Source: Sweltsa coloradensis
Lineage: Eukaryota > Arthropoda > Insecta > Plecoptera > Chloroperlidae
NCBI GenBank assembly: GCA_024449915.1
Contig: JAMZAV010002199.1
Location: 42,380 to 106,379 of the forward strand
Reading direction: 5' to 3'
Length of the DNA: 64,000 nt
Shown here: piece by piece, positions 7,122 to 58,392 of the stretch
Numbering within the stretch: the first letter of the stretch is position 1
Layout of the letters: every line of letters starts with the position of its first letter
The notes under the pieces: model-generated
Told to the model about the DNA's origin: nothing
What the model saw: only the letters and a program-made list of their open reading frames with translations
The model's database searches: none
Made by a program: the position numbers and the translations under genes

Positions 7122-7332
7122 TATTATAAACATAGCCCCGTGGACAGCGAACGACGCAAATTTAAAAATTTAAGTAATGTGCAATGTGGGTCTAGCTATA
7201 GCACGTGCTCGCTTATCAACGCGTCCAACTGAGCGTTTCCTAGTTTTTTATATATATATATAGTTTTTTTTTAAAAGCATAAGCCCGCTTTAAGGACATA
7301 GTTATTGATTCATAGCAGTTGTCGTAAAAGTT

Positions 7333-7403
7333 TGCCCCGACTGGGTTCGAACCCAGAACCTCCGTCTTAACGTGCCATAGCTCTACCAATGAGCCACCGG
7401 GAC
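7333..7403 (-). tRNA. tRNA-like sequence in left foldback arm (probably pseudogene)
   Basis: The minus strand folds as a tRNA: acceptor GTCCCGG, D-arm GCTC...GAGC, T-loop TTCGAAC and acceptor return strand TCGGGGC with A as discriminator. The anticodon loop reads ACGTTAA, which would give GTT (Asn), but position 33 is C instead of the near-universal U. The anticodon stem is mispaired and the T-stem is one base short. A tRNA-derived repeat is more likely than a working tRNA gene. Confidence 0.4.
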
Positions 7404-7807
7404 AACAGAACCAACCTTTACTAAACTGCTAGTTGTTGTGAATGCTGACTTCCATGACATAAATCCAACAGAAGACTGCAATGTAGCTGTCAAATCTGAA
7501 AGATCACATGGATAATCCAATCACATCTCATCTCCCATGAGTTAAGCCGGAGGTTCTGGGTTCGAACCCCAGTCGGGGCAAACTTTTACGACAACTGCTA
7601 TGAATCAATAACTATGTCCTTAAAGCGGGCTTATGCTTTAAAAAAAAACTTATATTCATACTACCCAACTCATGGGAGATGAGATGTGATTGGATTTATC
7701 CATGTGATCTTTCAGATTTGACAGCTACATTGCAGTCTTCTGTTGGATTTATGTCATGGAAGTCAACATTCACAACAACTAGCAGTTTAGTAAAGGTTTG
7801 TTCTGTT

Positions 7808-7880
7808 GTCCCGGTGGCTCAATTGGTAGAGCTATGGCACGTTAAGCCGGAGGTTCTGGGTTCGAACCCCAGTCGGGGCA
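7808..7880 (+). tRNA. tRNA-like sequence in right foldback arm (anticodon position GTT)
   Basis: A 73-nt cloverleaf: acceptor GTCCCGG/TCGGGGC, D-arm GCTC-AATTGGTA-GAGC, anticodon stem ATGGC/GCCGG with one mismatch, loop ACGTTAA, T-arm CTGGG-TTCGAAC-CCCAG, discriminator A. The A box (TGGCTCAATTGG) and B box (GGTTCGAACCC) are near consensus. C at position 33 is abnormal for a translation-competent tRNA. This copy is better preserved than the minus-strand one. Confidence 0.45.
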
Positions 7881-7924
7881 AACTTTTACGACAACTGCTA
7901 TGAATCAATATATACATATATATA

Positions 7925-8065
7925 TATATATGTTTTACCTTGGCTTTATAGTAGGCGACTATGACGCTGTTATGTTAGTACTTTAGATAGAAATTAAAAA
8001 AGTGACTACACCGGTGTATAGCCACTTTTTTAATTTATATCTAAAGTACTAACATATATATATAT
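7925..8065. mobile_element. collapsed foldback of the second tRNA-tipped family
   Basis: Near-perfect hairpin: ATGTTAGTACTTTAGATAG with AAATTAAAAAAGTG on one arm and its complement ending about 8060, joined by GACTACACCGGTGTATAGCC. The outer sequence (CTTGGCTTTATAGTAGGCGA) and the arms match the element at 31715-32240, but the tRNA body is missing, leaving only the 3' tip. Confidence 0.6.
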
Positions 8066-13748: not shown

Positions 13749-13884
13749 CTGAAATCAGTCCAATTCGTGTTGTTTAATTCTGTGGCTGTAGCACTAGGTC
13801 ATTATGTTCCAAATTTGTGTAACAGCATATAAAAATATATTGGTATGAAAACATTACATAAATTGTTGATTGAATATAAATTAA

Positions 13885-14525
13885 GGCTATTGTATTACCT
13901 CTGGCCGATAATTTGAAAGTCGAAGAAACATGTCTGAAAAGTTTGCTGAATGAAAGAAGGCCCTTTAAAATAACAGAAAAAAAATTGTGAATTTTTTTGG
14001 GCGGGACATAACCTCACTTTTGGAAATTATATTTAGATTTTTGGACAAAAGTGTAGTATACAAGACTCGTTCAAAATTTAATTTTGAGAATCGGTTTTCT
14101 GGACATAGTTTCTTAACAACTTTAGCTATAACTTGACTATAGCTAAAATAGTTTTCTGAAAATAACAGTTGGTGTACGAATTTTTTTGTCAAACGGTGCA
14201 AAACTCGTATTTGTACCGTTTGACAAAAAAATCGTCCACCAACTGTTATTTTCAGAAAACTATTTTAGCTATAATCAAGTTATAGCTAAAGGTGTTTGGA
14301 AACTATGTCCAGAAAACCGATTCTCAAAATTAAATTTTGAACTAGTCTTGTATACTACATTTTTGTCCAAAATCTAAATATAATTTCCAAAAGTGAGGTT
14401 ATGTCCGCCCAAAAAAATTCACAATTTGTTTTCTGTTTTTTTATTTTTTAGTTCTTTCATTCAGCAAACTTTTCAGACATGTTTCTTCGACTTTCAAATT
14501 ATCGGCCAGAGGTGGTACAATAGCC
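13885..14525. mobile_element. long-TIR MITE flanked by TTAA (piggyBac-like target)
   Basis: Nearly a full palindrome: the left arm GGCTATTGTATTACCTCTGG and the right arm complement run about 290 bp each, meeting around 14205-14215. TTAA at 13881-13884 and 14526-14529 forms the target duplication used by piggyBac-type elements. The ends GGCTATT are shared with 57268-57897. No transposase. The apparent ORFs on both strands are palindrome mirror images. Confidence 0.75.
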
Positions 14526-14638
14526 TTAAGAATGTATGTGTGTGCTGCATATGTGTTAAGTGTGCGAGGTGTGAAGATTAATGCGCGACTGAAGTGACTG
14601 AAGATGTAAGTGAAGGTGACAATCAGAATTTTCACTAC

Positions 14639-17041: not shown

Positions 17042-18332
17042 CTACCGATTGGTGACGAATGTCTTCAGCTGGTGCGGGGGGGTACTGAGCCAAGCGAGCA
17101 CGATAGTGGAGTCAGTGTATAGCAACACTGTTTCTAGTGCAAGGGCTTGAGAGCGGGTAGGGTGTATATAAGCACCCCAGACAATAACAATGCTCCACTG
17201 AGTTCCAACTTGGGCACAGTGAGCAGCTTGACGGGCGCGACCTTGCTCCTGGCTCTCAACAATCGACGTGAGATTGCGAGGCACGTCTCAACGTGCAAGT
17301 AAAGAGTAGCAGCGTAGGCCTTCTCGGAGGCGTCGCAAAACCCTACAAGCCGGTATGTGGCATCGTTCATGACAAGGAGACGCGGAACATGAACATCACT
17401 CAACTTGGGCACGCTTTCAATGGCAGTGAGCCAAGTCTGAGAGATTGATTCCGAGAGTGATTCATCCCACTCCACCGCGCAAGAGCCAGAGATTCTGCTA
17501 TGAAAAAACCTTTCATCCAGGAGACGAAAGGGGTGAGAAACCCGAGTGGGTCGAATATGCGCGCGATGTAGGAGAGTATGGACCGTTTGGTGACGAAACC
17601 CTACAAAGGGCAGAGTGTGGAAGCTGAAGCAATCGGAACGAGGGTCCCACAACAGACCGAGAATTTTCAAAGCTTGTTCGTCGTTGGAGAAGACCAGGGG
17701 AGTTTTAGATGGTCCTTGGGGAGGGAGCTAAGAGCGTCAGGAACATTGCTAGCCCACTTGCGTAGCTCGACGCCTGCACACTGAGTGAGTGACTGCAACT
17801 CAGCACGAAGCACGAGGGCTTCGTCAAGGTCACTGGCGCCTGAAACTACGTCATCTATGTAGATGTTTGAAGTAAGGGCGCGTGAAGCGAGAGGAAACTT
17901 AGCACCTTCGTCCACGACCAGTTGCTGCAACACTCGTTGGGCCTGGAAGGCAGAGGGCGTGAGACCGTAGGTCACTGTATTGAGCTCGTACTCAATGACA
18001 GGAGAGTAGGGCTCAGGACGCCAGAATATGTGCTGACAAGCACGATCGTCCTGGTGCACAAGGATTTGACGGTACATCTGTCTCACGTCCGCGCACAAAG
18101 CTACAGGATAAGTGCGAAAAGTGGTTAGAACAGTGGGAAGGTCACTTTGAAGCTTAGGACCACTCAGCAGGACGTGGTTGAGAGCGACTCCACTTTTATC
18201 AGGAGAAGAGGCGTTGAATACCACTCGCAGTTTAGTGGTAGAGCTTGTGACCTTGTGTACACAATGATGCGGGATTATGTACTCCGCAGGTCGAGAGGAA
18301 GGCTGCATGTGCATGTGAACGAGCGTAATCAC
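17042..18332 (-). pseudogene. BEL/Pao reverse transcriptase and RNase H region
   Basis: RT fingers/palm: TTKLRVVFNASSPDKSGVAL, LCADVRQMYRQILVH, VTYGLTPSAFQAQRVLQQL and the active site YIDDVVSGA (about 18332-17667). Then the connection KILGLLWDPRSDCFSFH and RNase H-like stretch LVGFCDASEKAYAATLYL, LTVPKLELSGALLL, LLYTDSTIVLAWLS (17670-17042). YIDD in place of YVDD/YMDD is normal for this family. A frame change lies between RT and RNase H. It copies the element RNA and removes the template. Confidence 0.88.
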
Positions 18333-18367
18333 TCATGAACTCATGATATGAGTCATGAAGTGGAGGA

Positions 18368-19381
18368 TCACGCTTCAGACGACGCTCTAAAAATGACAAA
18401 AGTCTTGAGCGCGACGTCACGATTGTAGCCTGGCATGACGCAATCAGGCTTGAATGGTAGAGCGACCGAGTAGCGGCCAGAGGGGTCGCGAGAGTGAGTT
18501 TTAATGAAGTGCTCTTCAAAAGAGCGAATCCATTGGGTCCAGAGAGGGAGGTCGACTGACTTTTCTGTTTCCCAGAAGAGACGGAGAGTATGTTCCAACG
18601 GGGAGCTTGTCACAGCGAGAAATGAGTAGGATGACTCAGATGCTGGTTGAGTAGCGTGGACCGGACCTAAGATTACCCAACCAAAAACCGTTTTGAGTGC
18701 GGCAGGTTTGCTGCCTACGATCGTGTGTCCGGTTTTACAGAGAATGTCTGAGTAGAGATCGGCACCAATGAGGAAATCAATGGGCCCTGGTACATTGAAG
18801 CGATCGTCAGCGAGGTCAAGGTCATGATAGCGCTCTATGACGTCAGTGGACACGGAGGATGTAGGCAAATTGCCGGCAATAGTTGAGAGAACGTGTGCAT
18901 TGACATGCATAGAGGGTTGCCCAGAGAGCCGAGAAGCTAAACTGCATTGCACAATACCATGCACTCGAGTATTAGTTTGTCCGACACCTGACAGTTGGGC
19001 GGTGGCTGGATGACTTTCAAGCCCAAACGTTGCACTAACGACTTAGTGATAGCAGAGATTTGTGACCCGGAGTCAACAACCGCGCGAAAGGGTTGCATTT
19101 ATCCCGTGCGCGTCACTAATGAGTGCGCGAACGGTGCCTAGTATGACAGTTTGATGAGTGGGGCTCGAAGCCTGGACTTGACATGACAGAGTCTGGGGCG
19201 CTGAAGGACCTTGCTCGGTGACAGGAGTATCGTCAGCGAGAGACGGAGCGGATTCAGAATGTAACATAGAATGATGTTTAGAGCTTTGACACACAGAACA
19301 TGATTTCGTGGAAGTGCATTGGGATCGCAGATGTGCACCCATACAATTAAAACAGCGTTTTAATGGGCGCAGCGGGGTCAT
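18368..19381 (-). pseudogene. BEL/Pao zinc-knuckle and protease region
   Basis: The 19381-19073 piece has two Cys/His clusters (CFNCMGAHLRSQC and CSVCQSSKHHSMLH), typical of the gag/protease junction of BEL/Pao. The 18964-18368 piece carries the linker with DRFNVPGPIDFLIGADLYSD and VFGWVILGP, a conserved segment between protease and RT in Pao-type polyproteins. The protease active-site Asp lies in the gap between the pieces, in another frame (minus-strand VVDSGSQIS near 19080-19060). Frame breaks at both ends. Confidence 0.75.
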
Positions 19382-19491
19382 AACGTTGGTCTATGGTTAA
19401 ACCACGGAAAACATTGCACTGGTACAATGTATGAGAAGCCTTACATACCGGACAAGCGGACACAGTTGAATGAGAGTGATTACGAGATGAG

Positions 19492-20498
19492 TTAGTGGGT
19501 ACTCGCTGCACACTGTTGTTCGAGGCAGGGTGACGACACTAACAAGGTGTTGATTCGCTTTGAAGGGAGAGAACTTTTGACGGTAGTAACAGAACTTTTC
19601 CCGACAGCACATAACTCCATCGTTCTAGATTGGTCTTCGAGAAAATCGATTAGCGATTTGTACTCGGGAGTTGAATTAGATGTTTGTCTGTTTTCAAAAG
19701 CCTTGCGAGATGACGCATCAAGATTAGCTAATGCCAAACATAACAATAAGAAAATCACCTAAATCGGGAATATTCAGAGCTTTCAGAGATTCGACAGAGT
19801 TGCGATGTGTTTTTAGAAACGCTTGAAGACCGTCATAGGATGACGTTTTTAGAGGAACAAAATCTAAAATCTTGTGGACATACAAACTCCCTAGTAATCG
19901 CTTGTTTTGATAACGAGAGATGAGAGTGTTCAGAGCGAGGGGGTAATTTTCTTCAGTTATTTGAAACTCTGAGATGAGGGCCGACGGAGTTTCAGACAAT
20001 GAAGTTGTTAAATAGTGTAACTTTTGAACATTACTTAATGATTTATTATCATCGATCAGAGATTTGAAAAGAGAATAGAATTCGGGCCATTTGCAAATGT
20101 CTCCTTTGAACTTGGGAAGATCTATGACTGGCAATGCAAGAGATGGTTGAACTGAGGCGGACAGAGGACCAGGTTGAGTCACAACAGGGCGCTGATTTAA
20201 TTTATCAACCGTAGTATAACGAAACTTACAAGCAAAGAAAAGCGTTTCAAAACTGTCTTGAACTTTGTCTATTTCGATCGATTTAGCGGGAAGAACTACT
20301 TGGGGGGTGAGTTCGGCAAGAGACAGTGGGATTTTGCGGAACTCAGATTCCAATGAGACAAATATCAAAACGGGGCCTAAATGCCTCAACTTGATCGGGT
20401 TTTATTTTTTCGAACGCATTGTACGTTCGCTGAACGGACGCGAATATAAACTCGCGTCGAGCAACTAACTTTTTCTGCTGAGCTTGCAACTCTTCCAT
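19492..20498 (-). pseudogene. BEL/Pao gag, frameshifted
   Basis: An ATG at 20498 (minus) opens MEELQAQQKKLVARREFIFA, which breaks and resumes in the frame of 20389-19724. The main block has ALPVIDLPKFKGDICKWPEF, SNVQKLHYLTTSLS and LGSLYVHKI, the hallmark of the Pao-type gag domain. A further piece lies at 19758-19492. It would form the capsid-like shell. The first start sits about 210 bp inside the 5' LTR, a sensible leader length. Confidence 0.85.
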
Positions 20499-24989: not shown

Positions 24990-25860
24990 GTGTGAGTTCG
25001 ACATTTCGGAACCACTGTGTGTTTCATCCTTAGGACGACTGATTGTTGAAAGTGCGTTTGCTCGTTGCCTCTCTCGTTTGGGATCGTGTTTGAATGCCTT
25101 GACCAATGGCAATGGGGCTGGCCACATGTGCGTCCGTTGCAATCTCGCAGGTAGTTGTTACACCCCCCCTTGTTGTGACGTCTGCGGGTGAGGTGTGGGT
25201 TGTTAGTGATTGTGAGTGGTTGTGTTGATGAGAGGAGGCCATTGTCTCCATGAAAGTTGTTGGGATTTTTCTTAATCTCCACTGCCTCGCGAATTAGTCT
25301 GGGCCAGTAAGTGGGGTCGAAATAAGTACCCTGGTGTCTCCAAACATGATCTGGTGGTTATCGTCACCTATGTGTTCCAACTCATGTTTGGCTACCGCAG
25401 ACTTTGTGTCGTAACATTTAGCACAGTGAGCTTTGTGTTCTTTTATTCTCGTGGTGATGTTTCGCGCAGTTCGACCCCATATACACTTTTTCCACATTTG
25501 CACGGGATTTCGTACACACCTAAGGTCAACTAAAGGGGGGAAAAAGGGCTTTATTGGTTTTTAGATTGTTTCTAATCATATTACAGGGTTTGTAAACCAG
25601 GAGTATGTTGTGCTTGGCGAGAAATCTGCCCAAACCGTCTGTCGTACGGTGAACGTAGGTAGAGATGCCCACTTAGGTTTAGCCTGGCTTTGATCAACTG
25701 CAATTACCGATTTTCCTGTCATTTACGATTTAAAGGGTTTTTTATGTTATATCGTTCATACCCATTGTCCTGCAAAACTTCGTGACATGTTGTTTTTCGT
25801 TTTCATAGCTGCGTCGTCAGACAGTCGCTTTGGGCCCTGGTTACTAACGTGTTGATATGA
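24990..25860 (-). mobile_element. Penelope-like element, 3' part with GIY-YIG endonuclease
   Basis: The minus strand reads GRFLAKHNILLVYKPCNMIR (about 25640-25560), then KCIWGRTARNITTRIKEHKA, KSAVAKHELEHIGDDNHQIM (25503-25294) and EIKKNPNNFHGDNGLLSST (25282-25220). This is the order at the C-terminus of Penelope-like polyproteins: RT thumb, then the GIY-YIG nuclease with its Arg-rich helix and the KNPNNFNRD motif. Frameshifts separate the pieces and the RT core is missing. The first GIY-YIG Tyr region is degraded. Confidence 0.8.
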
Positions 25861-26315: not shown

Positions 26316-27949
26316 TATGGTTTCGTGAATGTAGGGGTCAGTGTGTGTCTCTTTCCTATGTACCGCATGTCCTATGCTGCCATCTTTCCCTTCCGGGTAA
26401 AAGTAGTTCAAGGAAAGGAAGTTTCCCGTACCGTTCTACCCCCATAGTGAACTGTATGTCTGTGTGGAGACTATTCAGGCGTTATTATAAAAACTCCCCG
26501 AGGGCTGTCAAACCATGAGTCTATCGCAAAATAATACGGCGGTCCAAACCTCCTCCTAGTAATATATCTCCTCTACCTCTACCCTTTTCAAGTACCTTAT
26601 CCGCATTTTGCCTTTTAATTCGTCTAACTCTATAAATGTCATGTTCTTTGTTTTCTTTGATGCAATGTTAAACTAAACTTGTAACTCTGTAATCACTGGG
26701 GTCAAGCTACAGAGGACCACACTTGGCCCCGCATTAAACCCTCCAGCCTTTTGGGGAGGTAAAATTCAATAAAATAAATAATGATAAAGGTAACGCGTCA
26801 GTGGTAATGAACAGAGGAAGATTACAACCTAAAAATGAAGGAATTGTTAAAGAACCCGGCATATAGGAAACTTGTAAGGACGGGGTTTTTTTTTTTTGGG
26901 GGGTTGGGGAAAAAAGAAATGGTTTTTTTTTTGAGGTTGGAGGGGTTTTTGCCGGTTGCATTTTGAATTTTTTTTAAATACCCCCCTATTTAGTAGGCCC
27001 CTTTAAGTTTTGAAAAGAAAAAGGGGTACCAATCCCCCTCGGCAAAAAAGGGCGGGCAAGAGGGGTCAGGGGGTTTTTTCAAACCGCATTCAGTGCCATT
27101 TTGGGTAAATTTAAAAAAGGGTTTCCTAGTTTCCCTTTGGAAGTTTTTGTTGGAGCTTTCGGGATTAAAAAAAACCAGGGGCGGGGTAAACCATGGTTTA
27201 AAAGCAGAAAATCCCCCGCCCAAACCTCCTTGTAAAATTTTTCCCAAAACCCTTTTCAGAAAACTTATGTTTTGCTTTTAATTGTTACCAAAAATGTCTG
27301 TCTTTTCTTGTTGTCTTTGTTCTTTTATCACGTGTCCTCGAACCTTGGTCAAGTAAAAAGGGGAAAACCTTTTTTAGGCGGGGGGGAACTTTGGGGGGGA
27401 AAATTTAAATAAAAAAAATTAAGAACCGGTTAAAAAATTTGAAGGGAAAACCAAAAAAATTTTTTTCAAAATTGGAAAAAAACTTTTAACCCCAAAGTCC
27501 CCTTTTTCTAAAAAACAAAACCCCAAATTTTAAACCTTTTAAAAAAGGGAAATTTCAACAAGCCAAAAAATTCAAAAATTTGTAAAGGGGGACCCGAAAA
27601 CGGAATAGAAACAAAAAAAAAAAACCCCGGCCTATATAAAAGTAAAACAACGCACTTTTTCCCAAAAAAACTTAAAAATTTCCTAAGGCCCATTTTAAAA
27701 CCACTCCTTTGAAAAGGATTCCCGGAAAATTTTTGGGAAAAGGACAAACCCCCCGGCCCCAAGTGAAAATGCCGGGGAGGCCCTTTGGGTGGCTTTTAAA
27801 GGGGGAAAGCGGATTTTTAAAATCAGTTTTGGTCAAAAAGCTTAAAGATCCTCGAAGCAGCCAATTTTCAAAACCCATGGGCAGAGACCTCTCTGGTTTC
27901 CCCCCCCTCCCCCGTTTGTCCCCTCGGGGAAGGTCGGCCCTGATTCCGA

Positions 27950-28654: not shown

Positions 28655-30510
28655 AGTAGGTTTAGGTTTTGATTGTATTTTTTTGTTTTGTTTAGTTACT
28701 CATTATTGGTTTATTAAGGGTACTTTCCGAATGTCCCCCACGCGCCCAAAACACCCAGACATCCCCCAAGTCCCCGAGGTTAACATGGGCTTTACGGGCG
28801 TTGTGATGGCGGCGGGTTTTACGAATGCTTTGGGCACGCCCAAGTGCAATTTAAAAGGCCTTTACACGAGAAATTTAGTTGCAGAATGCATTGCCGAAAT
28901 TTAAATTGAATAAAGTGGATACACATTTCCATAACGCATTACACGCCTTCTGAAAATTGCAGCAATAATTCCAAAAAAAGATGGGCTAAAACTTTCACAA
29001 CTTTGCTAGAAATTAATTCCCCGGAAAAAGGGTCTTTTAATTGCAGCTTGGGCGTCCCCCAAAGCTTTCCCGTAAACACCGCCCCCATCACAACGCCGTC
29101 AACGGAATTTTCACTAAAAAGAAATTATTAAAAGGCGTAACAAATACCTGCTGGAATAAACTGCCCCCTGCATTAAGTTTTTTTGGTTTTAGAAAAACTA
29201 GAAAAAAACTTTATCAACTGAAAAGAAATAAAAATTAAATAACAAACATTTATAATAGGTACGTCAGGGTCATATAAAAATAAAGAGGTCTGAAAGAACC
29301 TCTTTCACCACATCTCGTGGTCAACTCTGGGTGTATTTTTTAAAACCCCTGAAAACTCATTATCGACGATGGTTCCTAGACTTTTGGTTATTTATTTATT
29401 TAGGAGCTTTAAAAGTCTTGGTCAACAAAATATAAATATCTAGAAGGCTCAAAAGTAAAATAAATTTTTATCAAAAAAAAAAGCATAAAACAAACTTTGT
29501 GGTTTTGCAAATAAATTTGACACCCCAGATAAAATTTATTAAAAATTTATTGAAACTAAGGCAAATATAAAAACTAAGGGTTTCTTAATACTATGCCAAG
29601 GCCAAGGATCGAATAATGCTTCTTTACGTTCCTATTATATTTCTTCTAGGCTTTTATAGTTTTCCCGGTGAAAAAGAGAATTTTCCCTTTTACATTTTTG
29701 CAGCCCTGTTTCTTATTTTCTCGATAAGCAGTTCACAGGGGATATAAATAATTACACCCAAAAGTTGACCTCAGTGCGGTGAAAAAAGGGGTTTTTTCAG
29801 CCTCTTGATTTATATAAACCCCGGCTGTACATTTAAGTGTTGTTTATTTTCAATTTCATAAAAATTAATATAGGTATGTTCAAAAATATGACTTTTATTT
29901 AAAAAAAATGAACACTGTTCACGATCAGGTATGTACACAATGCGTAATTTAAAAAAACCCAAATTAGTAAATTTTAAATTTTTTGACCTTAATGTCTAAC
30001 TGAAAAATATTGTTAAAAATTCAAGTTTCCTTAACATAAAATTTTAATTTTTTTCATTGCCGAAATTTGGCTATTTGGTTAGTAATCGCTGTTGGTATGG
30101 AAGCGTGGGGGGCAGGGGGTTTTTCCTTCGAAAAAAATGTTGCAAAAACATCATAATCTGCGTTCGCTAAGGTGGAAAGCCTACCCGGTCTTTTAAATCT
30201 ACACCCGCGTTTTAAAAAAAATATCAAATCCCAAAAATAAAAATCCCTTAAACGTGGGGGTTGCCTAGTATCCAACATAGCAAGGCTTATTTAGATTCCT
30301 TAATTTAAAGGCTTGGCTCGCCTGCCTACCCAGCTAAGGGGGTATATGAAGTCAATCGACAACCAGGCATGACGAAATGGGTGTAGGCATTGAAAGCCCG
30401 TCAATACTCTCCCCGGGAAATTTCTGTGACCCACTTCCCGGAAGTTTAAAAGCGTGCCTGAAAAATTGTAAAATTATTCATTTTGTAAAAACCAAAGAGA
30501 GGTTCTCTGC
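28655..30510. other. unassigned
   Basis: AT-rich, several short frames without recognisable domains. 29041-29235 has a basic open frame (TKKKLLKGVTNTCWNKLP), of unknown origin and within the low-quality block. Nothing else was seen. Confidence 0.4.
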
Positions 30511-30514
30511 ACTA

Positions 30515-30966
30515 AACTACTAGAATCTAGTTTAAAAGGGGGGACGTGAGCACTAAACTACTTGAATCTAGTTCAGGGGTAGTGGCACTAAACTCTAGAT
30601 CTAGTTAAGGGGTACGGGCCCAAACTACAGTCTAGTTCAAGAGGTACTGACCTAAACTACTGAATCTAGTTCAAGGGGGGAGTGAGCACTAAACTACTGA
30701 ATCTAGTTTAAGAGTGTGAGCACTAAATACTTTAATCTAGTTCAAGGGGGACGTAAGTACTAATACTAGAATCTAATTCAAGGGGGACGTAGCCCTAAAC
30801 TACTAGAAACTAGTTCAGGGGGACGTGAGCACTAAAATACCGAAACTAGTTCAAGGGGTACGAAAATACTAAACTATAAATCAGTTAAGGGTACGTGAGC
30901 ACTAAAATACTGAATCTAGTCAAGGGGTAGTAATACTAAACTACTAGAATCTAATTTAAGGGGTGG
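30515..30966. repeat. minisatellite, unit about 35-42 bp, about 11 copies
   Basis: Units read roughly GAGCACTAAACTACTGAATC plus TAGTTCAAGGGGTACGT with point changes and indels. Unit length varies because of indels, as expected for low-quality consensus. There are no unique spacers, so this is not a CRISPR array. Confidence 0.8.
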
Positions 30967-31710: not shown

Positions 31711-31834
31711 TATATTATATGTTAGTACTTTAGACAGAAATTAAAAAAGTGGTGTAGTCACTTTTTTAATTTCTGTCTAAAGTACTAACATAACAGCGTC
31801 ATAGTCGCCTACTATAAAGCCAAGTTTTTTAAAC

Positions 31835-31881
<47 letters not shown>

Positions 31882-31907
31882 GTACTCTAGACAGTAAATA
31901 AAAAAAG

Positions 31908-31965
31908 TGACTACACCGGGGATCGAACCCGGGACTTTAGCTATCCGGGCTATGCTCTTACCACC
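31908..31965 (-). tRNA. tRNA-like sequence, 5'-truncated
   Basis: The minus strand has GGTAAGAGC (end of D-arm), anticodon arm TAGC-CCGGATA-GCTA with GGA at the anticodon position, T-arm CCGGG-TTCGATC-CCCGG, and tail GTGTAGTCA. The first acceptor strand and part of the D-arm are missing. Position 33 is C, as in the other foldback family. A pseudogene or tRNA-derived module. Confidence 0.35.
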
Positions 31966-32089
31966 TTTACAGAGATGGTTTGTATTCTCCAGTTAATTCG
32001 TATGTAGTCTTATAGGCAGTGCAATCTGCTCTACACACGTTATTAACAATGTACAAAATAGACAAAAAACTAAACAGTTTTGAATTGGT

Positions 32090-32161
32090 GGCCGTATAGC
32101 TCAGTTGGTAAGAGCATAGGCCGGACAGCTTAAGTCCCGGGTTCGATCCCCGGTGTAGTCA
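32090..32161 (+). tRNA. tRNA-like sequence with A and B boxes
   Basis: GGCCGTA, TAGCTCAGTTGG (A box), AAGAGC, T-arm CCGGG-TTCGATC-CCCGG (B box GGTTCGATCC). The acceptor strands pair imperfectly and the anticodon arm (ATAGGCCGGACAGCTTAAG) folds poorly. It is inside a mobile foldback, so a functional tRNA is unlikely. Confidence 0.35.
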
Positions 32162-32329
32162 CTTTTTAATTTTTGTCTAAAATACTAACATAACAGCGCA
32201 ATAGTCGCCTACTATAAAGCCAAGGTTAAACATATAGCTTTAAAAAGTGCTAGTAATTAGCACGAAAGGTTGTCTAAATAATTAACACTACACGGATAAC
32301 CGAAAGCTATTTATATATAATTTTCCGTG

Positions 32330-41632: not shown

Positions 41633-41785
41633 TTATTATTATTTTATTATTATTGATTCATAGCAGTTGTCGAAAAAGTTTGCCCCGACTGGGGTTCGAA
41701 CCCAGAACAACAACGACAACGACAACTGCTATGAATCAATAACTATGTCCTTAAAGCGGGCTTATGCTTAAAAACCATAATATTA

Positions 41786-51676: not shown

Positions 51677-52559
51677 TGGTTGATATATTATTTACAGAAA
51701 CATTTACTTTGGATTCAGAAATCAGTCCACTGCTAACTGGAGGTTGACTAGCTCAGCCAATGCACCTTGTAGTCAATGATATTGTGAAACATGATTATGA
51801 AGGATCTATAACTGACCCCTTTGTGATAACGGTGATTTCGCTTCACAACGAAGGCCCAGTCACTGAAAGTAGACGATCAGATACGTCCCCATTTTCGAGA
51901 AGATGGGCTCAATCGTCCGAACAAGCTGAGAGAGGGCTCAAAAAATTCGTAATTTTCCCCTGATTACAGAAAAGGCAACTTGGAAAATGAAATCGGTAGC
52001 TTTTAGCTTTGAGGGGCAAAAAACGGTCAAAAACGGCAAAGTGTAAAAAGACTTAAAGAAGACATACAAACCTAAACTCTAACGCTAATGCTCACACGAG
52101 ATAAAAAAAATAAAGATTAAATACAAATCGGTAACTTTCAGCCTTTAGAGGCCAAAAACGACCAAAAAAGGCAACATGTAAAATAGATTTGATAAAGCCC
52201 GATTTAACAATGAGCTTACGCTAATACCATCACGAGAACATTAAAATAGATACGAAATAGGAATCGGTAGCTTGTAGCTTTTAGAGGCAAAAAACGACCA
52301 AAAAAGGCAAATTTTGTAAAGATTTTAAGACGACCGATTTAACCATTCACTAACACAAATGCTAATACGAGATCATAAAAAATGTAAGGGAAATATGAAT
52401 TGGTAGCTTTTAGTTCTTTCAGCACAAAAATGGATAAGAGGGCACACTAGTAGAGGCCGCAATTTCATCAAAAATAGCGTTAGATAATATGCGTGAGTGT
52501 TATACAATAGTAGTTTGCACAATGTTTATATTAACTAGAAACATAACAAAAACTTGTAA

Positions 52560-52960
52560 AAAGACAGACAAACCTTACACACTCGAAAGAAATGGGATCT
52601 AACAAAAGGGCCAAGCTCATCTACCCTTCCACATTTGCGCATTCTTAATTCATAAACGTACAGTGCCCCGTAACAGCATCCGTGAAAAGCTTGGCAAAAT
52701 AGAATTTGCAATTATTAATTTAAACGTTATAGTTCATCCAAGTTATTTTTTCTAATTAATTTAAATGTAATATCATGCAAATTCTATTTGGACAAGATTT
52801 TCAAGGATGCTGTTACGGGACACTGTACGTTTATGAATTAAGAATGCGCAAATGTGGAAGGGTAGATGAGCTTGGCCCTGTTTCAGGACCCATTTCTTTT
52901 GAGTGTGTAAGGTTTGGCTGTATTTTTACAAGTTTTTGTTATGTGTGGGATCTCATAACT
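52560..52960. repeat. inner inverted repeat of the foldback element
   Basis: AGCTCATCTACCCTTCCACA, ACGTACAGTGCCCCGTAACA on the left reappear inverted as TGTTACGGGACACTGTACGT and TGTGGAAGGGTAGATGAGCT on the right; arms of about 180 bp meet near 52745. Confidence 0.85.
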
Positions 52961-57076: not shown

Positions 57077-58392
57077 CTAGGAAAACGCCAAAGTCGTTGT
57101 TGGACGAGTGAGTGAGTATCACAATTGCATTTGCAGCTGCAGCATGCACGCATGCAGCTCTGACTCATCTAGTAGAGACTTGTCTAGCTGCTACAGCTGA
57201 GTTGACGTAGAGGCGGGTGACTCCAAAACTGGCAAAACATATCACATCGCCAACACCAAAGTGTTAAGGCTATTCCAGAGCACTTTTACCGATATATCGA
57301 AAGTCAAAGGAAAATGGCTGAAAGTTGGCTGGATGAAAGATGAACTTATATAAAAAAGAAGAAAAAATAACTTTTATTTTTTAACGGGACAAAAGCTCTA
57401 TTTTGGCCATTATATGCAAATTTTGGGTCACTACGAAAATGAATGTTTTAGATGCAATATTTAGTTTTGAGCAATGATTTTTTTTTTACTGTTTCAACAC
57501 ATCTTTGTCTCTGGACTGAGTATAAGGGAAAATAATTTTCTGAAATAATGTTCGATGTACGATTTTTTTTGTCACATGGTACAAAAAAGAGTTTTGAGCC
57601 GGAACACCAAAAAAATCGTTCATCAAAAGTTATTTCAAAAATTATTTTCCCTTGTACTCAGTCCAGACACAAAGGTGTGTTGAAGCAAAAAAAATGCATA
57701 GCTAAAAATTAAATATTGCATCTAAAACATTCATTTTCGTATTTACCCAAAATTTGCATATATAATGGCCAAAATAGAGCTTTTGTCCCGTCCAAAAGAA
57801 AATGTTCTTTTTTTATTCAAGTTCATCTTTCATACAACCAACTTTTAGCCATTTTCCGTTGACTTTCAAAATATAGGTAAGAGTGCTCTGGAATATCAAG
57901 ATTCCAAAATATGTTTTAGAAAGGTCCACTCATGAACTCCATTTCCCTCTCGATATGTTCTGCATCCATCTTTTATGCTCCTCAAATCAAATCCAATTTA
58001 GTAAAGCTCTGCAAATCAAAATTTTTTGCAGTATAATTAATTTTTTGTAAGTTGGCAGGGCAAGATATAATTCTGAAATTTTTCACAGATGTTAATATTC
58101 ATAGTGGTAACATTGTTAAAAGAGGGTATTTTTTTCCAAAGTGAACCTTAAGTTTAAGAAAAAAAAATAGTAATTTGTTTAATTTTTTGTAGGTTGGATT
58201 CTTGCAAATTTTGCTGTCCATGTTAACAGCACTCTATCTATTGGTCCTTGACGTTGGTGTAAAATTTGGTCAAAATCGGACGAGTAGTTTGGCTCCTGCG
58301 CATCGAACACAAAGACAGACATACACACATAAACACAACGAAGTGTCGAAAACTTGCCATAGAGATTCCGTTCGCTCCGCTCACTTGTCCAA
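57077..58392 (-). mobile_element. Helitron-like element with nested TTAA-type MITE
   Basis: The minus strand starts TTGGACAAGTGAGCGGAGCG (58392) and ends AACG-(7 nt)-CGTTTTCCTAG (57077) then T. Inside, 57268-57897 is a separate palindromic MITE (GGCTATTCCAGAGCAC ends, TTAA at 57264-57267), related at its tips to 13885-14525. Confidence 0.6.
57268..57897. mobile_element. long-TIR MITE, TTAA at left edge
   Basis: Arms of about 290 bp; the left GGCTATTCCAGAGCACTTTT matches the complement of the right end. The right TTAA is degraded (reads ATATCAAG). Confidence 0.65.

Follow-up and report, generated by a model that had tools for sequence, protein, structure and literature searches.

Foldback elements with tRNA-like modules in the stonefly Sweltsa coloradensis: probable non-autonomous retroelements of the Penelope-like type

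Foldback transposons such as FB and Galileo possess inverted repeats which are built of tandem units. To the Sm-alpha repeats of schistosomes, which have units of about 300 bp, both a Pol III promoter and a hammerhead have been ascribed. How Penelope-like elements (PLEs) are mobilised is poorly understood, and for animal retrozymes a driver has so far only been suspected in print. According to PMC11167929, the PLE of the anole cuts and extends both target strands, prefers ATT and starts reverse transcription at two adjacent internal sites, which define the genomic tail; in the in vitro results described there the start site is used without strand difference. For bdelloid PLEs, PMC3846280 describes neighbouring pLTRs in inverted orientation, one of which may carry a 31-bp tail, target duplications of 8-10 bp and mobilisation in trans through the pLTRs, and proposes self-priming for the inversions. 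The two sources give the tail as optional and 30-40 bp long, and one-sided tails are already published for PLEs and not new here. Animal retrozymes are described with type I hammerheads and with a PLE as suspected driver, and these accounts give no linking motif (PMC7229834, PMC7761336). No report of PLE-driven elements bearing a tRNA was found in the literature searched, which covered few subscription journals, so that prior notice is possible.

The window analysed here is a stretch of 64,000 nucleotides of the stonefly genome, for which an earlier note had described two unrelated families of foldbacks with tRNA-shaped modules at their arms and had left it between SINEs duplicated head to head and a distinct mobile unit. 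Our results support the second option. We think it probable that both families, here called A and B, are non-autonomous, retrozyme-like retroelements integrated by the reverse transcriptases (RTs) of PLEs with a GIY-YIG endonuclease, an attribution which draws on anatomy and not on shared sequence.

Five insertions, A1 and A2 of family A and B1, B2 and B3 of family B, were found in the window (Table 1). BLAST together with alignment of the units gave two arms with the unit tail outward in all five. The relics of A at 41.65 kb and of B at 7.93 kb, named in the earlier note, were recovered by BLAST. The foldback of family B at 31.7 kb is real as well, but the region 31.7-32.2 kb consists of two insertions, B1 and B3, which lie on either side of one (TA)n. 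Likewise, the families are two and unlike in overall sequence, but their architecture is common to both. The inverted arms are 98% (7390-7515/7696-7821) and 95% (7253-7345/7568-7660) identical in A1 and 94% (31902-31966/32103-32167) in B3, and the three full tRNA-like modules of the window score 36.4-49.5 bits against the tRNA model of Rfam, all above its gathering score of 29. The tRNA-bearing foldbacks are thus real, and good A and B boxes were confirmed in both families. Two of these modules were also called by ARAGORN under the bacterial code. A1 as a simple palindrome of two arms was rejected, as about 0.9 minus unit stands head to head with 1.3 plus units, and the run of A at 7641-7650 belongs to the interior of the family A unit and is no poly(A) tail.

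Table 1. Coordinates of the foldback insertions, their parts and a PLE remnant in the window
Feature	Position	Strand	Remarks
A1, family A foldback	7262-7910		(TA)n common to A1 and B2
A1 minus arm	7262..7543	-	about 0.9-1 unit; outer end of type L near 7262, within (TA)n; the central junction forms the inner end
A1 minus-arm tRNA-like module	7333..7403	-	Rfam RF00005, 36.4 bits
A1 plus arm	7541..7910	+	1.3 units; S-type outer end 7910 against (TA)n
A1 head-to-head junction	7541-7543		GTT microhomology
A1 plus-arm tRNA-like module	7808..7880	+	Rfam 49.5 bits; ARAGORN; T4 directly downstream
B2 tail-only foldback	7926..8056	.	L end left, S end right; adjoins A1, same (TA)n
PLE, decayed GIY-YIG endonuclease region	25223..25746	-	tblastn with L073 PLE endonuclease, E 1.7e-38, 51.5%
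B1 tail-only foldback	31718..31836	.	S end left, L end right
B3 two-armed	31881..32233	.	L end right; left end close to S (the alignment stops short by 6 nt)
B3 tRNA-like module	32090..32161	+	Rfam 44.6 bits; T run directly downstream
A2 tail-only foldback	41650..41774	.	S end left, L end right; lies in (TTA)n

Both families were followed through the assembly of 1.449 Gb in 16,871 contigs. An exact 31-nt piece of the A tail occurs at 2,233 places in the genome, while its reversed control occurs at none, which puts these repeats beyond chance; a 33-nt pattern of family A had no match in viral contigs. In the similarity searches the best 40 of 2,138 candidates for A and the best 40 of 2,182 for B were scored, and the sample of loci is therefore biased to near-full units. 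It comprises 30 loci of A, 10 of B and 32 further regions, two of which repeat loci L003 and L024.

The unit of family A measures 293-297 bp and that of family B 291 bp. Both are circularly permuted and code for nothing, and the units often stand in tandem, head to tail, with up to about seven in one arm (L051). In their non-coding, tandem units A and B resemble the metazoan retrozymes, which are likewise of low GC, consist of non-coding units of about 300 bp (within a range of about 150-450 bp) and occur as dimers to multimers. However, retrozymes are defined by the type I hammerhead, and A and B carry instead a tRNA on a stalk upstream of their start sites. The unit size of Sm-alpha is similar too, but no hammerhead was found in A and B. 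The insertions L018 and L051 have the same central junction and their flanks match on both sides at about 83%, whereas the minus arm has about 1.2 units in L018 and about 7.2 in L051; arrays therefore also change after insertion.

Among the 60 clusters which contain both orientations and do not lie at an edge, 54 are of the type minus-plus, three are minus-plus-minus-plus, one is plus-minus-plus and only two are plus-minus alone. The arms of A and B are joined head to head with their tails outward, as expected of PLE integration. The two-armed form is common, not universal, as single-armed insertions of A and B exist. Edge cases and four duplicates among the loci were excluded from the count that follows. 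Of the insertions selected by the searches, the tails-out two-armed form accounts for 26 of 38 in A and 19 of 29 in B; of those which happened to lie in the same stretches of DNA, a less biased sample, it accounts for 4 of 8 in A and 5 of 14 in B. A majority of single-armed copies, which according to the earlier note would make the inversion incidental, was not obtained, the margin being narrow in that smaller sample. The inner junctions lie at many positions of the unit and show short overlaps or fillers, and the centre of symmetry and the length of the arms differ from copy to copy.

The outer ends are far less variable. Most of them fall at two positions of the unit about 45 nt apart, which we name S and L. 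With three loci left out throughout, 27 of 33 S ends of family A lie at u236/237 and 23 of 24 S ends of family B at u231, while 32 L ends of A were found at u269-285 and 36 of B at u269-279, 20 of these at u277. The windows for S and L were defined only after the ends had been inspected. Both ends fall within these windows in 41 of the 54 minus-plus clusters (30 A, 24 B), of which 36 are S/L, four L/L and one S/S; in the other 13 one end is at neither S nor L. After removal of the same-insertion duplicates L012 and L016, 34 of the remaining 39 insertions combine S with L (P = 1.0e-6 if the ends were independent). Some insertions may not be independent of each other: 77 bp of the left flank are common to L064 and L068, L028 and L052 have repeats of the right flank in common, and the matching flanks of L018 and L051 raise the same doubt, although L018 stands outside the 39. 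The S/S insertion L049 and the L/L insertion L065 lie within larger palindromes that include host flanks and may therefore be later duplications or an assembly artefact; once both are set aside the count is 34 of 37. The L/L insertions L028, L068 and L071 are exceptions without explanation. The published in vitro lack of a strand difference (PMC11167929), as far as that source describes it, does not predict this rule of one S and one L.

A check with exact patterns, independent of the similarity ranking and made on the first 100 listed places each for tails and S junctions, points in the same direction. The S end joined to (TAA)4 occurs at 514 places in the genome. Among the matches listed, 36 such junctions lie on contigs C1-C94, and an opposite-strand tail within 2.5 kb was found for 12 of them, 11 times tails-out and once tails-in; one has only a same-strand tail and 23 have none. 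Opposite S-S pairs are absent among the matches listed, and the five opposite tail-tail pairs are all tails-out.

These ends bear on two other origins of the foldback. Transposons of the FB/Galileo or MITE type that had captured a tRNA and were moved by a transposase would account for inverted repeats with internal tandem units, which resemble the arms of FB and Galileo, and the window has other large foldbacks without a tRNA match (13881-14529, 52541-52944 and 57271-57895). Such elements have the same terminus on both inverted arms, whereas the termini of A and B differ by about 45 nt in 34 of 39 insertions; the variable centre and arm length, the single arms and a layout of the ends which matches that of RT-coding elements in the same genome also speak against a transposase, so that we consider this origin most improbable. 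An inversion arising within a PLE-type process by snap-back self-priming, on one cDNA or on antisense RNA, is unlikely in our view, but it deserves more weight. In 23 of 29 scorable cases (A 11/15, B 12/14) the arms of one insertion resemble each other more closely than they do the median arm from other insertions, as expected from one molecule, and PMC3846280 argues likewise for the bdelloid PLEs it treats. However, similar arms are also expected from two enzymes copying one RNA, which makes this likeness a weak sign of a shared template, and under snap-back the second arm would have no cause to end at S or L, whereas both outer ends lie there in 41 of the 54 clusters.

The targets fit a PLE as well. 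AT-rich target sequence is a PLE trait and is found for both families: the mean AT content of the 30-nt flanks is 0.77-0.89 compared to 0.615 for the window, and by a strict test 36 of 125 flanks are microsatellite-like versus 74 of 20,000 random 30-mers of the window. Target duplications, such as the 8-10 bp of bdelloid PLEs, would be masked in microsatellites. Family A sits mostly inside (TAA)n and family B mostly inside (TA)n. At the S end the final bases match the target repeats, which makes priming by microhomology plausible. In L005, L012 and L027 an A insertion lies in the middle of host sequence with mirrored flanks, which seems to be a palindromic repeat that contains a TAA run.

In the integration by PLE enzymes which we favour, the template would be an RNA of units of about 290-297 nt, multimeric or circular. 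The enzyme would cut both strands of the target, mostly in (TAA)n for A and in (TA)n for B, and reverse transcription would begin internally on each strand, at S or at L, which in the RNA lie some 45 nt from each other. Most insertions would have one arm begun at S and the other at L, and the two cDNA arms would run inward until they are joined head to head at variable positions of the unit. Hundreds of short insertions with both ends preserved may make this mechanism readable from DNA, namely the start site on each strand, the joining of the arms and the RNA structure needed.

The tRNA-like module lies at u134-206 in A and at u128-199 in B, upstream of S, with 31 and 32 nt between the end of the tRNA and S in the two families. 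Its flanks pair into a stalk, which is matched in stability by only 13 of 1000 shuffles in A and 38 of 1000 in B, whereas for mixed pairs of A and B flanks 535 and 338 of 1000 shuffles are as stable. RNAalifold did not recover the stalk from the A and B copies, because these are too alike and gappy; in 7 of 54 distinct copies of B, T-A takes the place of C-G at one stalk pair. The odd C at position 33 was confirmed in both families: the anticodon-loop string ACGTTAA is present in 62 of 88 A copies (16 have no match to the search string, and the other A loops shown include two with A at this position), and C is found in all 63 matched B copies, 15 of 78 being without match. A run of at least four T within 16 nt after the tRNA was found in all 74 scorable copies of A and in 74 of 75 scorable copies of B (14 and 3 copies, respectively, were not scorable). 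A transcript from the tRNA promoter should therefore end there, before the start sites, and for that reason the module most likely works in the template RNA, in recognition by the enzyme or in RNA processing. The earlier proposal that two Pol III units in inverted arms would give RNAs able to pair does not hold, as one and the same unit points outward in either arm and the transcripts of the two would be identical and not complementary, and the T run should end them; a hairpin RNA would arise only from read-through across the whole insertion.

The same facts weigh on an origin from ordinary tRNA-derived SINEs moved by a LINE, with the head-to-head form due to twin priming or later recombination. 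The tRNA-like region with A and B boxes, the short non-coding units and the single-armed insertions are as in SINEs. In contrast to the 5' promoter of a SINE, however, the tRNA of A and B stands in mid-unit and is followed at once by the T run, so that its promoter would not make the unit; the circularly permuted unit has no poly(A) or simple 3' tail, and a common two-armed, tandem form whose two fixed ends follow the one-of-each rule differs from SINEs too. We regard this origin as very improbable, and A and B are better read as non-autonomous retroelements of the PLE type than as SINEs joined head to head. Annotations as foldback SINEs may hide products of PLEs.

PLEs with a GIY-YIG endonuclease are like A and B in their inverted terminal copies joined head to head, their tandem copies and 5'-truncated arms, in the optional tail between two start sites and in the AT-rich target, and A and B differ from them in the non-coding units of about 300 bp, the tRNA module and the lack of a detectable hammerhead. 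A pattern search found no hammerhead core on the element strand of the A or B units, and Rfam reported only the tRNA in the units of L050 and L035. A single degenerate match on the opposite strand of A was taken as chance.

We also looked for PLEs in the same genome. The best 150 of 1,048 candidates include 28 matches to the GIY-YIG domain PF01541, and such matches stand in opposite-strand pairs on contigs C10584 and C1827. L073 is a frame-broken PLE with RVT_1 and GIY-YIG matches, and L074 is arranged head to head with the short end left and the long end right, as judged by eye. A hammerhead core pattern is present in L073-L075 and was not reported by Rfam. Within the fetched A and B loci a hammerhead family C was found with ends L/S (L022, L056) and S/L (L055), so that all three two-armed copies found by BLAST have ends of the S/L type; L072 is L/S by eye. 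Family D, a hammerhead-bearing PLE, is L/S in L013 and S/L in L053 (by eye), and its ORFs in L037 and L057 resemble the PLE endonuclease, that of L037 also the RT. D adjoins B in common microsatellites at L037, L053, L057 and L066, and at L049 a further PLE is found close to A in (TAA)n. The top GIY-YIG match, L076 on the 2.37-Mb contig C13, was rejected as a PLE since it looks like a bacterial uvrC; this UvrC-like ORF with a full GIY-YIG match points to a symbiont or contaminant contig, or to a transfer.

The hammerhead core stands before S by 22 nt in PLE-1, 53 nt in C and 73 nt in D. The tRNA of A and B and the hammerhead of the PLEs are thus on the same side of S at unequal distances, and they occupy the same place in a loose sense only. 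The interval between S and L in C, D and PLE-1 has GGCCRCGAAA in common (1, 7 and 0 of 2000 shuffles as good), which was seen in family C at L022, L055, L056 and L072 and in family D at L013, L037, L053, L057, L059 and L066; it is possibly a conserved motif of PLE start sites. The S-L intervals of A and B gave at least 303 of 2000 shuffles as good in every pair with PLE-1, C and D, and compared with each other they have nothing significant in common. Terminal sequence shared with an autonomous PLE was thus not found among PLE-1, C and D, and this is the main gap in the attribution.

The module of A and B stands upstream of the start sites, on the side on which a hammerhead is found in PLEs and animal retrozymes. 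Such a correspondence would hint at the purpose of the ribozyme and would link SINEs, retrozymes and PLEs. It is conceivable, and we put it forward tentatively, that A and B are tRNA retrozymes, in which the stalked tRNA functionally replaces the hammerhead in preparing the template near the start sites, and that PLE enzymes regularly start at S on one strand and at L on the other, so that every foldback insertion would preserve the two starting points which a dimeric enzyme used on a single RNA.

The window itself contains the PLE remnant listed in Table 1, whose kind is a candidate driver for A and B. A decayed fragment of a PLE RT lies at 26528-26881 (+), on the strand opposite to that endonuclease region. 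Furthermore, the window holds the relic of a BEL/Pao retroelement at 17134-20401 (-) with Peptidase_A17 and DUF1759 matches, at 42.4-42.8 kb a zinc finger which we take to be lola-like and for which 16 candidates yielded no homologue at E <= 1e-20, and a tandem array of about 13 copies of about 36 bp at 30509-30964.
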